From positions 1-29,543 of IMG/VR virus record IMGVR_UViG_3300009008_000182: a DNA stretch of 29,543 bases. One strand, given 5' to 3'. Origin of the DNA: a virus. Under the pieces are notes generated by a model, which ran no database searches, was not told the DNA's origin, and was given only the letters and a program-made list of their open reading frames with translations. Position numbers and translations under genes: made by a program. Of the stretch, positions 17,382-20,890 are shown piece after piece (positions within the stretch are counted from its first letter, which is position 1; each line of letters starts with the position of its first letter).

Positions 17382-17410
17382 TTGACAAGACTTGCAGCAC
17401 ATGTTATATT
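17382..17410 (+). promoter_or_regulatory. Strong sigma70-type promoter for the ssDNA-binding protein operon
   Basis: TTGACA (17382-17387), a 17-bp spacer and TATATT (17405-17410) with an extended TGT before the -10. An A-rich stretch (AAAAAAGT..GAAAAAAGTC) lies upstream like an UP element. Nearly the same upstream sequence (AAAAAAGTCCTTGACAA) occurs at the 26141 promoter. It drives 17446 and probably the whole run to UvsX. Confidence 0.9.
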
Positions 17411-17754: not shown

Positions 17755-17797
17755 ATGCTCGGAAGATTTGCCGAGTATACTAAAGGGTAATTTACCC
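17755..17797 (+). promoter_or_regulatory. Two-hairpin leader before the ssDNA-binding protein gene
   Basis: An 8-bp stem (17755-17762 with 17771-17778, one G-T pair) with an 8-nt loop is followed by a 5-bp GGGTA/TACCC hairpin (17785-17797). Both stand upstream of an AAGGAG site for the gene at 17822. T4 gene 32 is autoregulated by gp32 binding in a structured leader, so this is a candidate operator. It does not have the pseudoknot geometry found downstream. Confidence 0.4.
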
Positions 17798-17821: not shown

Positions 17822-18589
17822 ATGGCTATTGATATGAGCAAAATGAAGTCGAAGCTGAATTCGGTACAAAACCGTGGGAGTTCACGCACTTCACAATTCT
17901 GGCGTCCCTCGGACGGGGACCAGACTATTCGCATCGTTCCAACTGCGGACGGCGACCCCTTCAAGGAGTATTGGTTCCACTATAATGTGGGCAAGAATGC
18001 AGGCTTCTTGAGTCCCAAGAAGAATTTTGGCGAGGATGACCCACTGGATTCATTCGTTCGTCAACTCTTTAATGAGGGCACTGAAGAAAGCATCAAGATG
18101 GCTAAGAACTTGATGGCGCGTCAGCGTTTCTTCTCTCCCGTCATTGTTCGGGGCGAGGAAGCCAAGGGCGTCCGTATCTGGGGCTATGGTAGGACTGTGT
18201 ACGAGCAGCTTCTCAACCTTGTCCTCAATCCAGAGTATGGGGATATTACTGACCCCGATTCTGGCACAGACCTTCACCTAAATTACGGGAAGCCTGCTGG
18301 CGCATCCTTTCCGCAGACTAAGCTGATGCCATCTCGTCGTACTTCTACTATCTGCCCAAATATTACTGAGGCAGAATGTGCGGAGTTGCTTGAGTCTATT
18401 CCAGACTTCGGTACACTCTTTGAGAAGAAGTCTTCAGAAGACGTACAGCGTATGCTGGACGAATATCTGGCTGATGACGAGTCGGCAGAGGACATGTCCA
18501 CTGAAACAAATCGCTATGGCGGCAACACTACCTCCCAAAGCAGCACTGCCAATAGCGTTGAAAGCGCATTCAACGAACTTCTTGGGTGA
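17822..18589 (+). CDS. Single-stranded DNA-binding protein (gp32-like)
   Basis: The 255-residue protein has an N-terminal basic/helical leader. Then comes FWRPSDGDQTIRIVPTADGDPFKEYWFHYNVG (given here in two parts: FWRPSDGDQTIRIVP and FKEYWFHYNVG), typical of T4 gp32-like OB-fold proteins in marine T4-related phages. The rest of the core is helical, with the ending FFSPVIV..EE.KGVRIWGYG. The C-terminal ~45 residues are acidic and Ser/Thr-rich, ending ESAFNELLG, like the regulatory tails that contact helicase and recombinase. No zinc-binding cysteine cluster is visible, unlike T4 gp32. It coats ssDNA in replication and recombination, and its neighbour UvsX is the recombinase. AAGGAG precedes the ATG. 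Confidence 0.82.
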   Translation: MAIDMSKMKSKLNSVQNRGSSRTSQFWRPSDGDQTIRIVPTADGDPFKEYWFHYNVGKNAGFLSPKKNFGEDDPLDSFVRQLFNEGTEESIKMAKNLMARQRFFSPVIVRGEEAKGVRIWGYGRTVYEQLLNLVLNPEYGDITDPDSGTDLHLNYGKPAGASFPQTKLMPSRRTSTICPNITEAECAELLESIPDFGTLFEKKSSEDVQRMLDEYLADDESAEDMSTETNRYGGNTTSQSSTANSVESAFNELLG

Positions 18590-18600
18590 TAGCTTTTATG

Positions 18601-18634
18601 ACCCACGGGGGGGCACAGGGTTATCAGGTGCCCC
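18601..18634 (+). ncRNA. Intergenic H-type RNA pseudoknot, copy 1
   Basis: Helix 1 pairs ACCC (18601-18604) with GGGT (18618-18621). Helix 2 pairs GGGGCAC (18610-18616) with GTGCCCC (18628-18634). The linkers are 5, 1 and 6 nt. Copies 2-4 keep this layout. It lies 11 bp after the ssDNA-binding protein stop and 14 bp before copy 2. Confidence 0.7.
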
Positions 18635-18647
18635 ACACTTTTACAAT

Positions 18648-18681
18648 ACCCACAGGCAGGCACAGGGTTATCAGGTGCCTG
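18648..18681 (+). ncRNA. Intergenic H-type RNA pseudoknot, copy 2 (FKBP leader)
   Basis: Helix 1 is ACCC (18648-18651) with GGGT (18665-18668). Helix 2 is CAGGCAC (18657-18663) with GTGCCTG (18675-18681), so the outer two base pairs differ from copy 1 on both strands. Linkers are 5, 1 and 6 nt. An unstructured A/U-rich stretch with the AAAGGAA site follows before the FKBP start at 18708. Confidence 0.75.
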
Positions 18682-18707
18682 ATTTAACAATAAAGGAATT
18701 TTTTATT

Positions 18708-19166
18708 ATGAACGCAAAAAGCGGAAACTCAGTCACCGTCCACTACACTGGAACACTGGATGATGGCACAGAATTTGATACCTCCCGAGGGAGAGAACCA
18801 GTCACCTTTACTCTAGGCTCTGGGCAGTTGATTTCTGGCTTCGATACTGCTGTCACTGGAATGACAGTGGGTGAGGTCAAGGAGGTTGTTCTGTCGCCAG
18901 CAGAGGCATACGGCGAGACGAACCCAGAGTTGACTCAGACGGTTTCACAGCAAGCCTTCCCAGAGGGCTTTGAGTTTGTCGTTGGTGGACAGGTTATGGG
19001 TCAAAGCCCACAAGGTCCAGTCATGGCGACCATCTTGGAACTTGAGGACAACGAGGTCAAGCTTGATATGAATCATCCGATGGCAGGTAAGAATCTTAAT
19101 TTTAAAATTGAGGTTGTTTCTATCGAAGAATCGGCTGAAGGTGGTGCGGCTGCATCAGAAGAATAA
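18708..19166 (+). CDS. FKBP-type peptidyl-prolyl isomerase, SlyD-like
   Basis: The 152-residue protein opens with the FKBP fold VHYTGTLDDGTEFDTS..REP..F.LGSGQLISGFDTAV.GM.VGE.K...L.P..AYGE. An inserted flap domain follows (~70-125), then LDMNHPMAGK.L.F.IEV, which is the SlyD arrangement. It should catalyse cis-trans prolyl isomerisation and act as a folding chaperone in the cytoplasm. The histidine-rich metal tail of E. coli SlyD is replaced by an acidic/Ala tail. The open frame extends upstream over the ssDNA-binding gene, but ATG 18708 after AAAGGAA is the credible start. Two tandem pseudoknots lie in its leader. Folding phage tail or replication proteins is an inferred role. Confidence 0.88.
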   Translation: MNAKSGNSVTVHYTGTLDDGTEFDTSRGREPVTFTLGSGQLISGFDTAVTGMTVGEVKEVVLSPAEAYGETNPELTQTVSQQAFPEGFEFVVGGQVMGQSPQGPVMATILELEDNEVKLDMNHPMAGKNLNFKIEVVSIEESAEGGAAASEE

Positions 19167-19172
19167 TTTAGA

Positions 19173-19205
19173 TATCCGCAGGGAGGCACGGGATACAGGT
19201 GCCTC
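19173..19205 (+). ncRNA. Intergenic H-type RNA pseudoknot, copy 3 (lipoprotein leader)
   Basis: Helix 1 is TATCC (19173-19177) with GGATA (19191-19195); the other copies have ACCC/GGGT, so both strands changed together. Helix 2 is GAGGCAC (19183-19189) with GTGCCTC (19199-19205), another compensated variant. Linkers are 5, 1 and 3 nt. An A/U-rich stretch with AGGAGA follows before the ATG at 19229. Confidence 0.78.
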
Positions 19206-19228
19206 AAATTCATTAGGAGAAAAATAAA

Positions 19229-19363
19229 ATGATGAAAATGATGAAGGTTGTTACCATCCTACCCCTCGCGCTAATGCTGGCGTGTGGTGATAAGGATGAG
19301 CAAGACAGCGGTTCCGATAGTGGAGTCGTAGAAGAAGGTGGCGACACCGGAGGGGCAGAGTAA
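19229..19363 (+). CDS. Tiny lipoprotein with Asp/Ser/Gly-rich tail
   Basis: This 44-residue protein begins MMKMMK, followed by a hydrophobic h-region and lipobox LMLAC (Cys19). The mature part is only ~26 residues, acidic and disordered (DEQDSGSDSGVVEEGGDTGG). TAGGAGAA precedes the ATG. Its stop overlaps the next ATG (TAATG), so it is coupled to a single-pass membrane protein. Small lipoprotein plus inner-membrane protein is the layout of two-component spanins, though the order is reversed and no coiled coil is seen. The Asp-Ser-Gly tail matches Myxococcota-type lipoproteins. Function unknown. Confidence 0.7.
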   Translation: MMKMMKVVTILPLALMLACGDKDEQDSGSDSGVVEEGGDTGGAE

Positions 19364-19614
19364 TGACTGCAATTTTTACTAATCGTTGGGTTCAGGCAGG
19401 CTTGGCTGTATCAGCAATTATCGTTGGAGTGTTGGTTTTTAACCATAGCGAAGACGCTACTGTTGCTACAACTGAGGCGGCTCAGACACCAGTTACAACC
19501 GTTGCATCGCCAGATAATGCCGATGCAGCAGCAACGACGGAGGCGAGCCTTGAGACTATCGAGCCTGTCACCGAAGATGCTGAAGCGGCTGAAACCACAG
19601 AAGCGACTGAGTAG
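19363..19614 (+). CDS. Single-pass membrane protein with acidic Thr/Ala tail
   Basis: The 83-residue protein has one N-terminal transmembrane segment (~10-26, VQAGLAVSAIIVGVLVF). A ~55-residue low-complexity tail of Ala, Thr, Glu, Val and Pro follows and probably faces the periplasm. It overlaps the lipoprotein gene by one base. The pair could be a spanin-like lysis device or an envelope-exclusion device. The tail lacks an obvious coiled coil or amphipathic helix, so I do not commit. It is in an operon with the ssDNA-binding and recombinase genes, an odd place for a late lysis gene. Confidence 0.6.
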   Translation: MTAIFTNRWVQAGLAVSAIIVGVLVFNHSEDATVATTEAAQTPVTTVASPDNADAAATTEASLETIEPVTEDAEAAETTEATE

Positions 19615-19621
19615 TATATCA

Positions 19622-19657
19622 TAACCCACAGGGGGGCACAGGGTTAACAGGTGTCCC
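19622..19657 (+). ncRNA. Intergenic H-type RNA pseudoknot, copy 4 (recombinase leader)
   Basis: Helix 1 is TAACCC (19622-19627) with GGGTTA (19641-19646), the longest version. Helix 2 is GGGGCAC (19633-19639) with GTGTCCC (19651-19657), keeping pairing through one G-U. Linkers are 5, 1 and 4 nt. An A/U-rich segment and GTGGAG lead to the recombinase start at 19689. Confidence 0.78.
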
Positions 19658-19688: not shown

Positions 19689-20822
19689 ATGATGGCAACG
19701 AAAAAAACAAAGGTTGGCAAACTTTCTATTGCCGATATGCGTAAGATGATTAATAAGCGAGCGGGTCAAGACGTTGCTTACAATCTCACAGAGGATAACC
19801 CAACGGAAGTTAAGCAGTGGATTCCCACTGGTGCCCGTTGGCTTGATAGTATTATCTGTCGAGGGCAATTGGCTGGAATTCCAGTCGGTAAGGTTACTGA
19901 GATTGCGGGGCTTCAGTCTACTGGTAAATCGTACATGGCTGCACAAGTCGCAGCTAACGCTCAAAAGCAAGACATTGATGTGGTGTACTTTGATGCGGAG
20001 TCTGCGATTGACCCCGGCTTCTTAGAGAAGGCTGGCTGCGACTTGGAAAAGATTCTTTATGTTCAAGCCGAGTCGGTCGAGTTCGTCTTGGAGACTATTG
20101 AAGATTTGCTTGGGTCGGCAGAAAATAAACTCTTGTTTATCTGGGACTCGCTGGCGCTGACACCAAGCACTACGGACATCGCAGGAGACTTTAACCCGCT
20201 GAGTTCTATGGCTGTGAAGCCACGAATTCTCTCAAAGGGCATGGCTAAGTTGGTTCAGCCTATTGCCAATGCCGAGGCTACCCTGCTTGTACTCAACCAG
20301 TTGAAGACAAATATTACTAGTAATGTTGCAGAGGCAATGACCACCCCATACTTTACACCGGGCGGCAAGGCGATGCACTATACTTACAGCTTGAGGATTT
20401 GGCTTACGGGTCGCAAGGCTAAGGCATCGTTCATTATGGATGACCATGGCTTTCGGATTGGCTCCGAGGTCAAAGTTAAACTTGAGAAGTCGCGGTTCGG
20501 AACGCAGGGCAGGCAGTGTGCCTTTAAGATTCTCTGGGGCGACGATGTGGGAATTAAGGATAGGGATAGTTGGTTAGAAGCTGTCAAGGGTTCTAAGCAC
20601 TTGACATCTGGCGGTGCGTGGTATACATTGACTCACAAGGACGGCACGACTGAAAAGTTTCAAAGCGCCACTTGGCTCCAGAAACTTGAAAATAAAAAGT
20701 TTTATGACCGTATCTTGGAGTTGATGGACGAAGAAATTATTCTTCGTTTCGACAGTCGAGAAGGTAATGCTTCCGACTTCTACGACATCGCCGACCAAGG
20801 AGGTGATGTATCAAAAAGTTAG
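19689..20822 (+). CDS. RecA/UvsX-type recombinase
   Basis: The 377-residue protein has a RecA-fold ATPase core. Walker A is GLQSTGKS (74-81), the Walker B strand is LLFIWDS (148-154), and a catalytic-type Glu lies in FDAES (~101-105). The L2-region segment FTPGGKAMHYTYSLRI.L is as in phage UvsX/RecA proteins. It forms filaments on ssDNA and drives strand exchange, important for recombination-dependent replication with the gp32-like protein upstream. The C-terminal ~90 residues are family-specific. Expression may be limited by the pseudoknot in its leader, and a terminator/promoter switch lies right after the gene. Confidence 0.88.
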   Translation: MMATKKTKVGKLSIADMRKMINKRAGQDVAYNLTEDNPTEVKQWIPTGARWLDSIICRGQLAGIPVGKVTEIAGLQSTGKSYMAAQVAANAQKQDIDVVYFDAESAIDPGFLEKAGCDLEKILYVQAESVEFVLETIEDLLGSAENKLLFIWDSLALTPSTTDIAGDFNPLSSMAVKPRILSKGMAKLVQPIANAEATLLVLNQLKTNITSNVAEAMTTPYFTPGGKAMHYTYSLRIWLTGRKAKASFIMDDHGFRIGSEVKVKLEKSRFGTQGRQCAFKILWGDDVGIKDRDSWLEAVKGSKHLTSGGAWYTLTHKDGTTEKFQSATWLQKLENKKFYDRILELMDEEIILRFDSREGNASDFYDIADQGGDVSKS

Positions 20823-20835
20823 TGAAAGAAAGTAC

Positions 20836-20865
20836 TTGACAGCTTGCCCTCACTTGTGCTATACT
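20836..20865 (+). promoter_or_regulatory. Sigma70-type promoter for the deaminase gene, nested in a terminator
   Basis: TTGACA (20836-20841), an 18-bp spacer and TATACT (20860-20865) with an extended TGC before it. The -10 falls within the loop of the terminator hairpin at 20847-20883. It should start RNA near 20872, past the 5' arm of that hairpin. Confidence 0.8.
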
Positions 20866-20890
20866 GTTGGTAACAAGTGGGGGTTTTTTT
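20847..20890 (+). terminator. Intrinsic terminator after the recombinase gene, overlapping a promoter
   Basis: CCCTCACTTGT (20847-20857) pairs with ACAAGTGGGGG (20873-20883): 11 bp including one G-T. A 15-nt loop separates the arms and seven T's follow (20884-20890). Read-through RNA from the recombinase would form it. RNA started at the embedded promoter lacks the left arm and would pass. Confidence 0.72.

Follow-up and report, generated by a model that had tools for sequence, protein, structure and literature searches.

Here, we describe a large family of RNA pseudoknots that is absent from Rfam and that occurs in uncultured, largely marine phages, usually behind the gene for a gp32-like single-stranded-DNA (ssDNA)-binding protein. 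The elements keep a fixed distance from the stop codon in front of them, not from the ribosome-binding site that follows, and the pseudoknot most likely shapes or protects the 3' end of the gp32 mRNA; it less likely serves as a switch that controls the following gene. In bacteria and phages, conserved RNA structures are seldom placed 3' of a gene, and our search of the literature for a pseudoknot linked to gp32 or uvsX found no description of one.

The window that we analyzed is a whole uncultured virus record of 29.5 kb (29,543 nt), in which open reading frames (ORFs) were called by a simple procedure throughout; all features named below are on its plus strand. A sigma-70-like promoter (TTGACA-17-TATATT, 17382 to 17410) lies upstream of a 98-aa ORF and of the gp32-like gene (17822 to 18589, TGA at 18587 to 18589; PF08804, phrog_1192). 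An FKBP-type peptidyl-prolyl isomerase (18708 to 19166, stop codon at 19164 to 19166; PF00254) comes next, followed by a lipoprotein-like ORF of 44 aa (19229 to 19363) and an 83-aa ORF with a membrane anchor (19363 to 19614), both read from the sequence and without a match in family searches. The UvsX/RecA-like recombinase gene (19689 to 20822; PF00154, phrog_97) closes the stretch. This gene content, proposed earlier in a first-pass annotation, agrees with the profile matches and the sequence.

Four pseudoknots stand between these genes, and they are real and nonrandom. Copy 1 (18602 to 18634, type A) begins 12 nt past the gp32 stop codon. Its helix 1 pairs 18602 to 18604 with 18618 to 18620, its helix 2 pairs 18610 to 18616 with 18628 to 18634, and its loops 1, 2, and 3 occupy 18605 to 18609, 18617, and 18621 to 18627, respectively; its tail (18635 to 18643) reads ACACUUUUA. 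Copy 2 (18649 to 18681, type A) follows in tandem, with helix 1 at 18649 to 18651/18665 to 18667, loop 1 at 18652 to 18656, helix 2 at 18657 to 18663/18675 to 18681, and loop 2 at 18664. Copy 3 (19175 to 19205, type G) lies 8 nt past the FKBP stop codon and pairs TCC (19175 to 19177) with GGA (19191 to 19193) in helix 1, with loop 1 at 19178 to 19182, helix 2 at 19183 to 19189/19199 to 19205, and loop 2 at 19190. Copy 4 (19625 to 19657, type A) lies 10 nt past the stop codon of the 83-aa ORF, with helix 1 at 19625 to 19627/19641 to 19643, loop 1 at 19628 to 19632, helix 2 at 19633 to 19639/19651 to 19657, and loop 2 at 19640. The first-pass annotation had reported four copies in these places with this order of arms, and both points hold. 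A search for the layout only, with no fixed letters (3-bp helix 1, 5-nt loop 1, 7-bp helix 2, 1-nt loop 2, and 5- to 7-nt loop 3), returned exactly four matches in the window, all on the plus strand and all identical with these copies. The dinucleotide-shuffled window yielded a mean of 0.15 layout matches over both strands (maximum, 1), and shuffled intergenic sequence yielded none in 2,000 shuffles. Likewise, a covariance model of relatives and the four copies found the same four only, with E values from 4e-12 to 2e-13.

The fold is supported by compensating changes. Helix 2 is paired in 88 of 88 aligned copies, with compensatory changes at 4 of its 7 pairs, in keeping with the matched changes first noticed among the four copies, although the aligned copies were picked partly for pairing and more weight belongs to a test on 232 distinct relatives matched without constraint on the left arm of helix 1. 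Because these sequences are related, counts of copies are not counts of independent events. Among the 232, the left arm of helix 1 has an invariant CC that forms two C-G pairs, and the third pair is formed in 97%, compared with 52.6% after shuffling (0/1,000); CG, AU, UA, GC, and UG were all seen, and most of the seven exceptions pair after a shift of one G. Pairs 4 to 7 are at or below chance. Helix 1 is three pairs. The 4- to 6-bp versions first read from the window (e.g., TAACCC/GGGTTA and TATCC/GGATA) consist of that 3-bp core, which stands, and an accidental extension, which does not. Inner pairs of helix 2 swap from C-G to U-A and from A-U to C-G. At one helix 2 position, G-C occurs 161 times and G-U 71 times (31%), while A-C never occurs. 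The presence of G-U without C-A indicates that the coding-strand RNA is the folding molecule, and with the compensating changes in relatives it strongly supports the original reading of these repeats as RNA structure.

The loops are also conserved. RCRGG and CAG persist though the helix sequences change, and the first nucleotide of loop 1 agrees with the nucleotide of loop 2 in 231 of 232 copies (A/A in 108, G/G in 123, and one exception); in the window, copies 1, 2, and 4 are A/A and copy 3 is G/G. Opposed at the helix junction, these two nucleotides likely make a symmetric homopurine contact. At 31 to 33 nt and with such unusual junction covariation, the element is a potential model pseudoknot. 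Conservation of loops and junction while helices change is what would be seen in an aptamer, and some copies (e.g., in locus L030) tolerate a long hairpin insertion in loop 3 and retain the core, so an element regulated by a ligand or another factor, controlling decay or readthrough at the gp32 3' end, has to be weighed. We consider it very unlikely: several copies precede small genes that are unrelated, there is no conserved alternative fold overlapping the pseudoknot, and Rfam offers no match.

Relatives were gathered through gp32 and UvsX and, independently, by two DNA patterns. Regular-expression surveys of uncultured viral contigs gave at least 269 distinct copies in context and, with helix 2 relaxed, at least 323, a few of which are chance matches. 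Because such patterns fix part of the motif, they somewhat overstate loop conservation, yet the same picture emerges from the covariance-model hits and from the left arm matched without constraint. The covariance model gave 91 matches in 78 gp32 loci, with all 91 on the gp32 strand when both strands were searched. The homologs with compensating changes that the first-pass annotation proposed to look for in related phages are present. No Rfam family matched the pseudoknot at its gathering cutoff. Matches to preQ1-II and other families had E values above 0.08 and scores under gathering, and we took them as chance. Sequenced phage isolates contained no pseudoknot match beyond chance, and in the two nearest isolates the gaps between gp32 and the recombinase are only 8 and 2 nt. 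Among 84,980 species genomes there was one exact match, a gp32-pseudoknot-uvsX segment in a WOR-3 metagenome-assembled chromosome (L369, CP070664.1) that is probably viral DNA.

The position of the elements points to the gene in front. Helix 1 begins a median of 8 nt past the stop codon (10 to 90% range, 6 to 19), and this spacing is the same whether the gene in front is gp32 (median, 9) or another (median, 8). The next start codon lies at a more variable distance (10 to 90% range, 18 to 133). Among 216 gp32-to-uvsX intervals with a pseudoknot, a copy lies no more than 35 nt from the gp32 stop codon in 180 but no more than 60 nt from uvsX in only 110. When the interval holds extra genes (137 cases), the element is on the gp32 side only in 75, on the uvsX side only in 2, on both in 33, and on neither in 27. 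All 79 direct gp32-uvsX intervals with a pseudoknot carry a single copy; tandem copies occur at only some loci (the window, L055, and L065). Long records usually have one pseudoknot cluster per genome, which makes a general, genome-wide terminator unlikely, and 24 of 26 element-bearing long records have a copy behind gp32, within about 0.7 kb and mostly directly behind, even as gp32 identity falls to 45%. The link to the gp32-like gene drawn from the window is thus strongly supported. The downstream gene varies, and frequently it is not uvsX. A readthrough or frameshift signal was rejected: all three phases occur, and a stop codon precedes the end of the element in 33 of 163 cases, the window included. 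A strict early pattern gave chance matches in coding sequence only.

What replaces the pseudoknot is informative as well. We compared 33 intervals without a recognized copy. In most close relatives the same slot is filled by a GC-rich hairpin with a U tract, in other intervals by a long hairpin whose loop is rich in C, and in L014 and L017 by an unrelated, divergent pseudoknot (GGCAGAC/GTCTGCC). The slot behind gp32 needs a stable structure, and the type of structure is free to change. The hairpin with a conserved C-run loop (L098, L099, L103, L105 to L107, L109, L110, L112, L113, L115, and L137) is possibly another RNA family.

Since ordinary hairpin and U-tract terminators occupy the slot in relatives, the element could be a pseudoknotted intrinsic terminator or attenuator, in which helix 2 and the U-rich tail would release part of the polymerases and lower expression of downstream genes relative to gp32. 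Helix 2 does provide a GC-rich stem of 7 bp, and the tail has a mean of 3.9 T's from +1 to +8, with 59 to 73% U at +4 to +7 in relatives compared with about 22% further on. However, no U tract touches the stem: +1 is A in 87% of copies and T in 8%, and the U's do not set in before +3 or +4; in the replacing hairpins, by contrast, +1 is mostly T. In addition, four copies stand in series before uvsX in the window, where no plus-strand promoter-like match above 9/12 was found from the gp32 start to the uvsX start; efficient termination would silence uvsX. Provided that the promoter of gp32 also serves uvsX, the pseudoknots cannot be efficient terminators, and we regard the terminator reading as unlikely. 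Compared with the intrinsic terminators and 3'-stabilizing hairpins that follow phage genes and that share this slot in relatives, the element is pseudoknotted, has strongly conserved loops, and opens its tail with A, not U.

A role at the 3' end is suggested instead by the fixed spacing to the stop codon, the bias to the gp32 side (75 versus 2), the replacement structures in the same slot, and a tail that resembles RN|WUU, the consensus for RNase E (PMC5222698). This motif occurs at +1 to +5 (A-N-W-U-U) in 42% of copies compared with about 3% at most other offsets, and within +0 to +8 in 64% compared with 13% in a control stretch, although the match partly follows from the U tract alone. In T4, RNase E cuts the gene 32 mRNA next to the stop codon (PMC3014915); here, too, a cut would be expected just past the gp32 stop codon, followed by exposure to 3' exonucleases. 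No pseudoknot has been reported at the T4 site, where cleavage is documented, whereas for our family processing is conjectured from RN|WUU. Our tentative but favored explanation, which we judge to have somewhat less than an even chance, is that the compact H-type pseudoknot delimits a cistron, mainly gp32, on its 3' side, as an exonuclease barrier coupled to an RNase E-like cut. The pseudoknot would block 3'-to-5' exonucleases, an RNase E-like nuclease, if the hosts have one, would cut the U-rich tail, and weak transcription termination may contribute. The gp32 mRNA would thereby gain a protected 3' end of its own, and gp32 would be made in larger amounts than the products of the genes that follow. 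As genes were inserted between gp32 and uvsX, the copies would have multiplied, which lets every such cistron finish with a pseudoknot. RNase processing or protection had been listed among the first alternatives, and it fits the stop-linked position, the replacement hairpins, and RN|WUU better than an operator does, with the processing step itself still conjectural. Some observations count against this explanation. Loop conservation is far above the needs of a passive 3' barrier and hints at a protein or other factor that binds specifically or at a tertiary fold with strict sequence demands; moreover, not all copies are near gp32, with a few located elsewhere. The family offers a testable case of how a phage could keep gp32, which is needed stoichiometrically, abundant within an operon.

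The first-pass annotation had favored translational control, with gp32 acting through the pseudoknots on the FKBP, lipoprotein, and UvsX genes. In that scheme, gp32 or another phage protein would bind the pseudoknots, spread over the A/U-rich leader, and repress downstream translation, in the way that gp32 of T4 represses its own message. The linkage to gp32 is nearly exclusive, the loops are conserved, and the H-type fold, confirmed in our family by compensating changes, resembles in size (about 30 nt) the autoregulatory pseudoknot of gene 32 in T4, T2, and RB69; in both, an unstructured stretch rich in A and U lies on the 3' side (PMC535899). The T4-type operator has UUAAA/UAAA repeats that extend over the ribosome-binding site; the tail of our elements is U-rich and then A-rich ahead of the Shine-Dalgarno region. 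The T4-type operator, however, is in the gp32 5' leader, whereas our elements are behind gp32, with a 3-bp helix 1 and a 5-nt loop 1, and are repeated in the operon. Anchoring to the upstream stop codon and not to the downstream start, a varying downstream gene that is often not uvsX, terminator-like replacements in close relatives, and a separate hairpin in the leader of gp32 itself leave the proposal unsupported and make it quite unlikely. The interval analysis likewise took away support for an operator role toward uvsX.

That leader hairpin is conserved, separate from the pseudoknots, and without a match in Rfam. In the window it spans 17755 to 17778, with an 8-bp stem and the loop AAGAUUUG; the RNA reads ATGCTCGG-AAGATTTG-CCGAGTAT, then ACU. 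Across 37 leaders, 99% of cells are paired, compensatory changes occur at 8 of 8 pairs, and the loop follows RANAUUNR; each of 158 distinct copies precedes a gp32-like start as far as can be read. Similar in kind to the operator hairpin of T4 gene 43, it is a better candidate than the pseudoknot for an operator of the gp32 gene. One may imagine a two-ended autogenous circuit, in which free gp32 or a phage partner would bind the leader hairpin, found only with gp32, to stop translation and the 3' pseudoknot to change readthrough or decay. We regard such a circuit as doubtful, but if true, it would let the dosage of ssDNA-binding protein and recombinase track the amount of ssDNA via RNA elements unlike those of T4.

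Repetition raises the question of an element acting as DNA, that is, a recombination or mobile-cassette repeat, or an ssDNA structure, that admits small genes between gp32 and uvsX. The PeSL mobile cassettes of T4-like phages were considered as a parallel and set aside, since the pseudoknots contain no promoter-like match on the coding strand. Inserted genes are flanked by copies, tandem copies occur, and a genome usually has a single cluster. Yet G-U without C-A and the strict gene-wise orientation speak for RNA, and single copies without an insertion are common (the 79 direct intervals), which leaves a DNA-level element extremely unlikely. The STAXI motif also comprises pseudoknots, often repeated, near genes for ssDNA-binding and other DNA-handling proteins (Weinberg 2010, PMC2864571). 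STAXI is tandem, in two or three copies, and often has UUCG loops, whereas our element is usually single, as in every direct interval, and has no UUCG. The locus did not match the STAXI model of Rfam at the gathering cutoff or even with E values of up to 10.

Some other structures deserve mention. Away from gp32, a pseudoknot lies between an AAA_5 ATPase gene and the gene downstream in L401 (1789 to 1832) and L255 (3386 to 3431); in L255 the latter encodes a DUF2201 VWA-like protein, placing the element at an AAA ATPase to VWA-domain junction. In the window, a GC-rich hairpin (CGGGGGAG-ATTTTCTT-CTCCCCCG, 607 to 630), without a U tract, stands soon after the stop codon of the ORF at 43 to 591. 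Finally, a terminator-like hairpin read by eye (20847 to 20890; 11-bp stem, 15-nt loop, T7) follows uvsX, and a promoter-like TTGACA-18-TATACT overlaps it (20836 to 20890).
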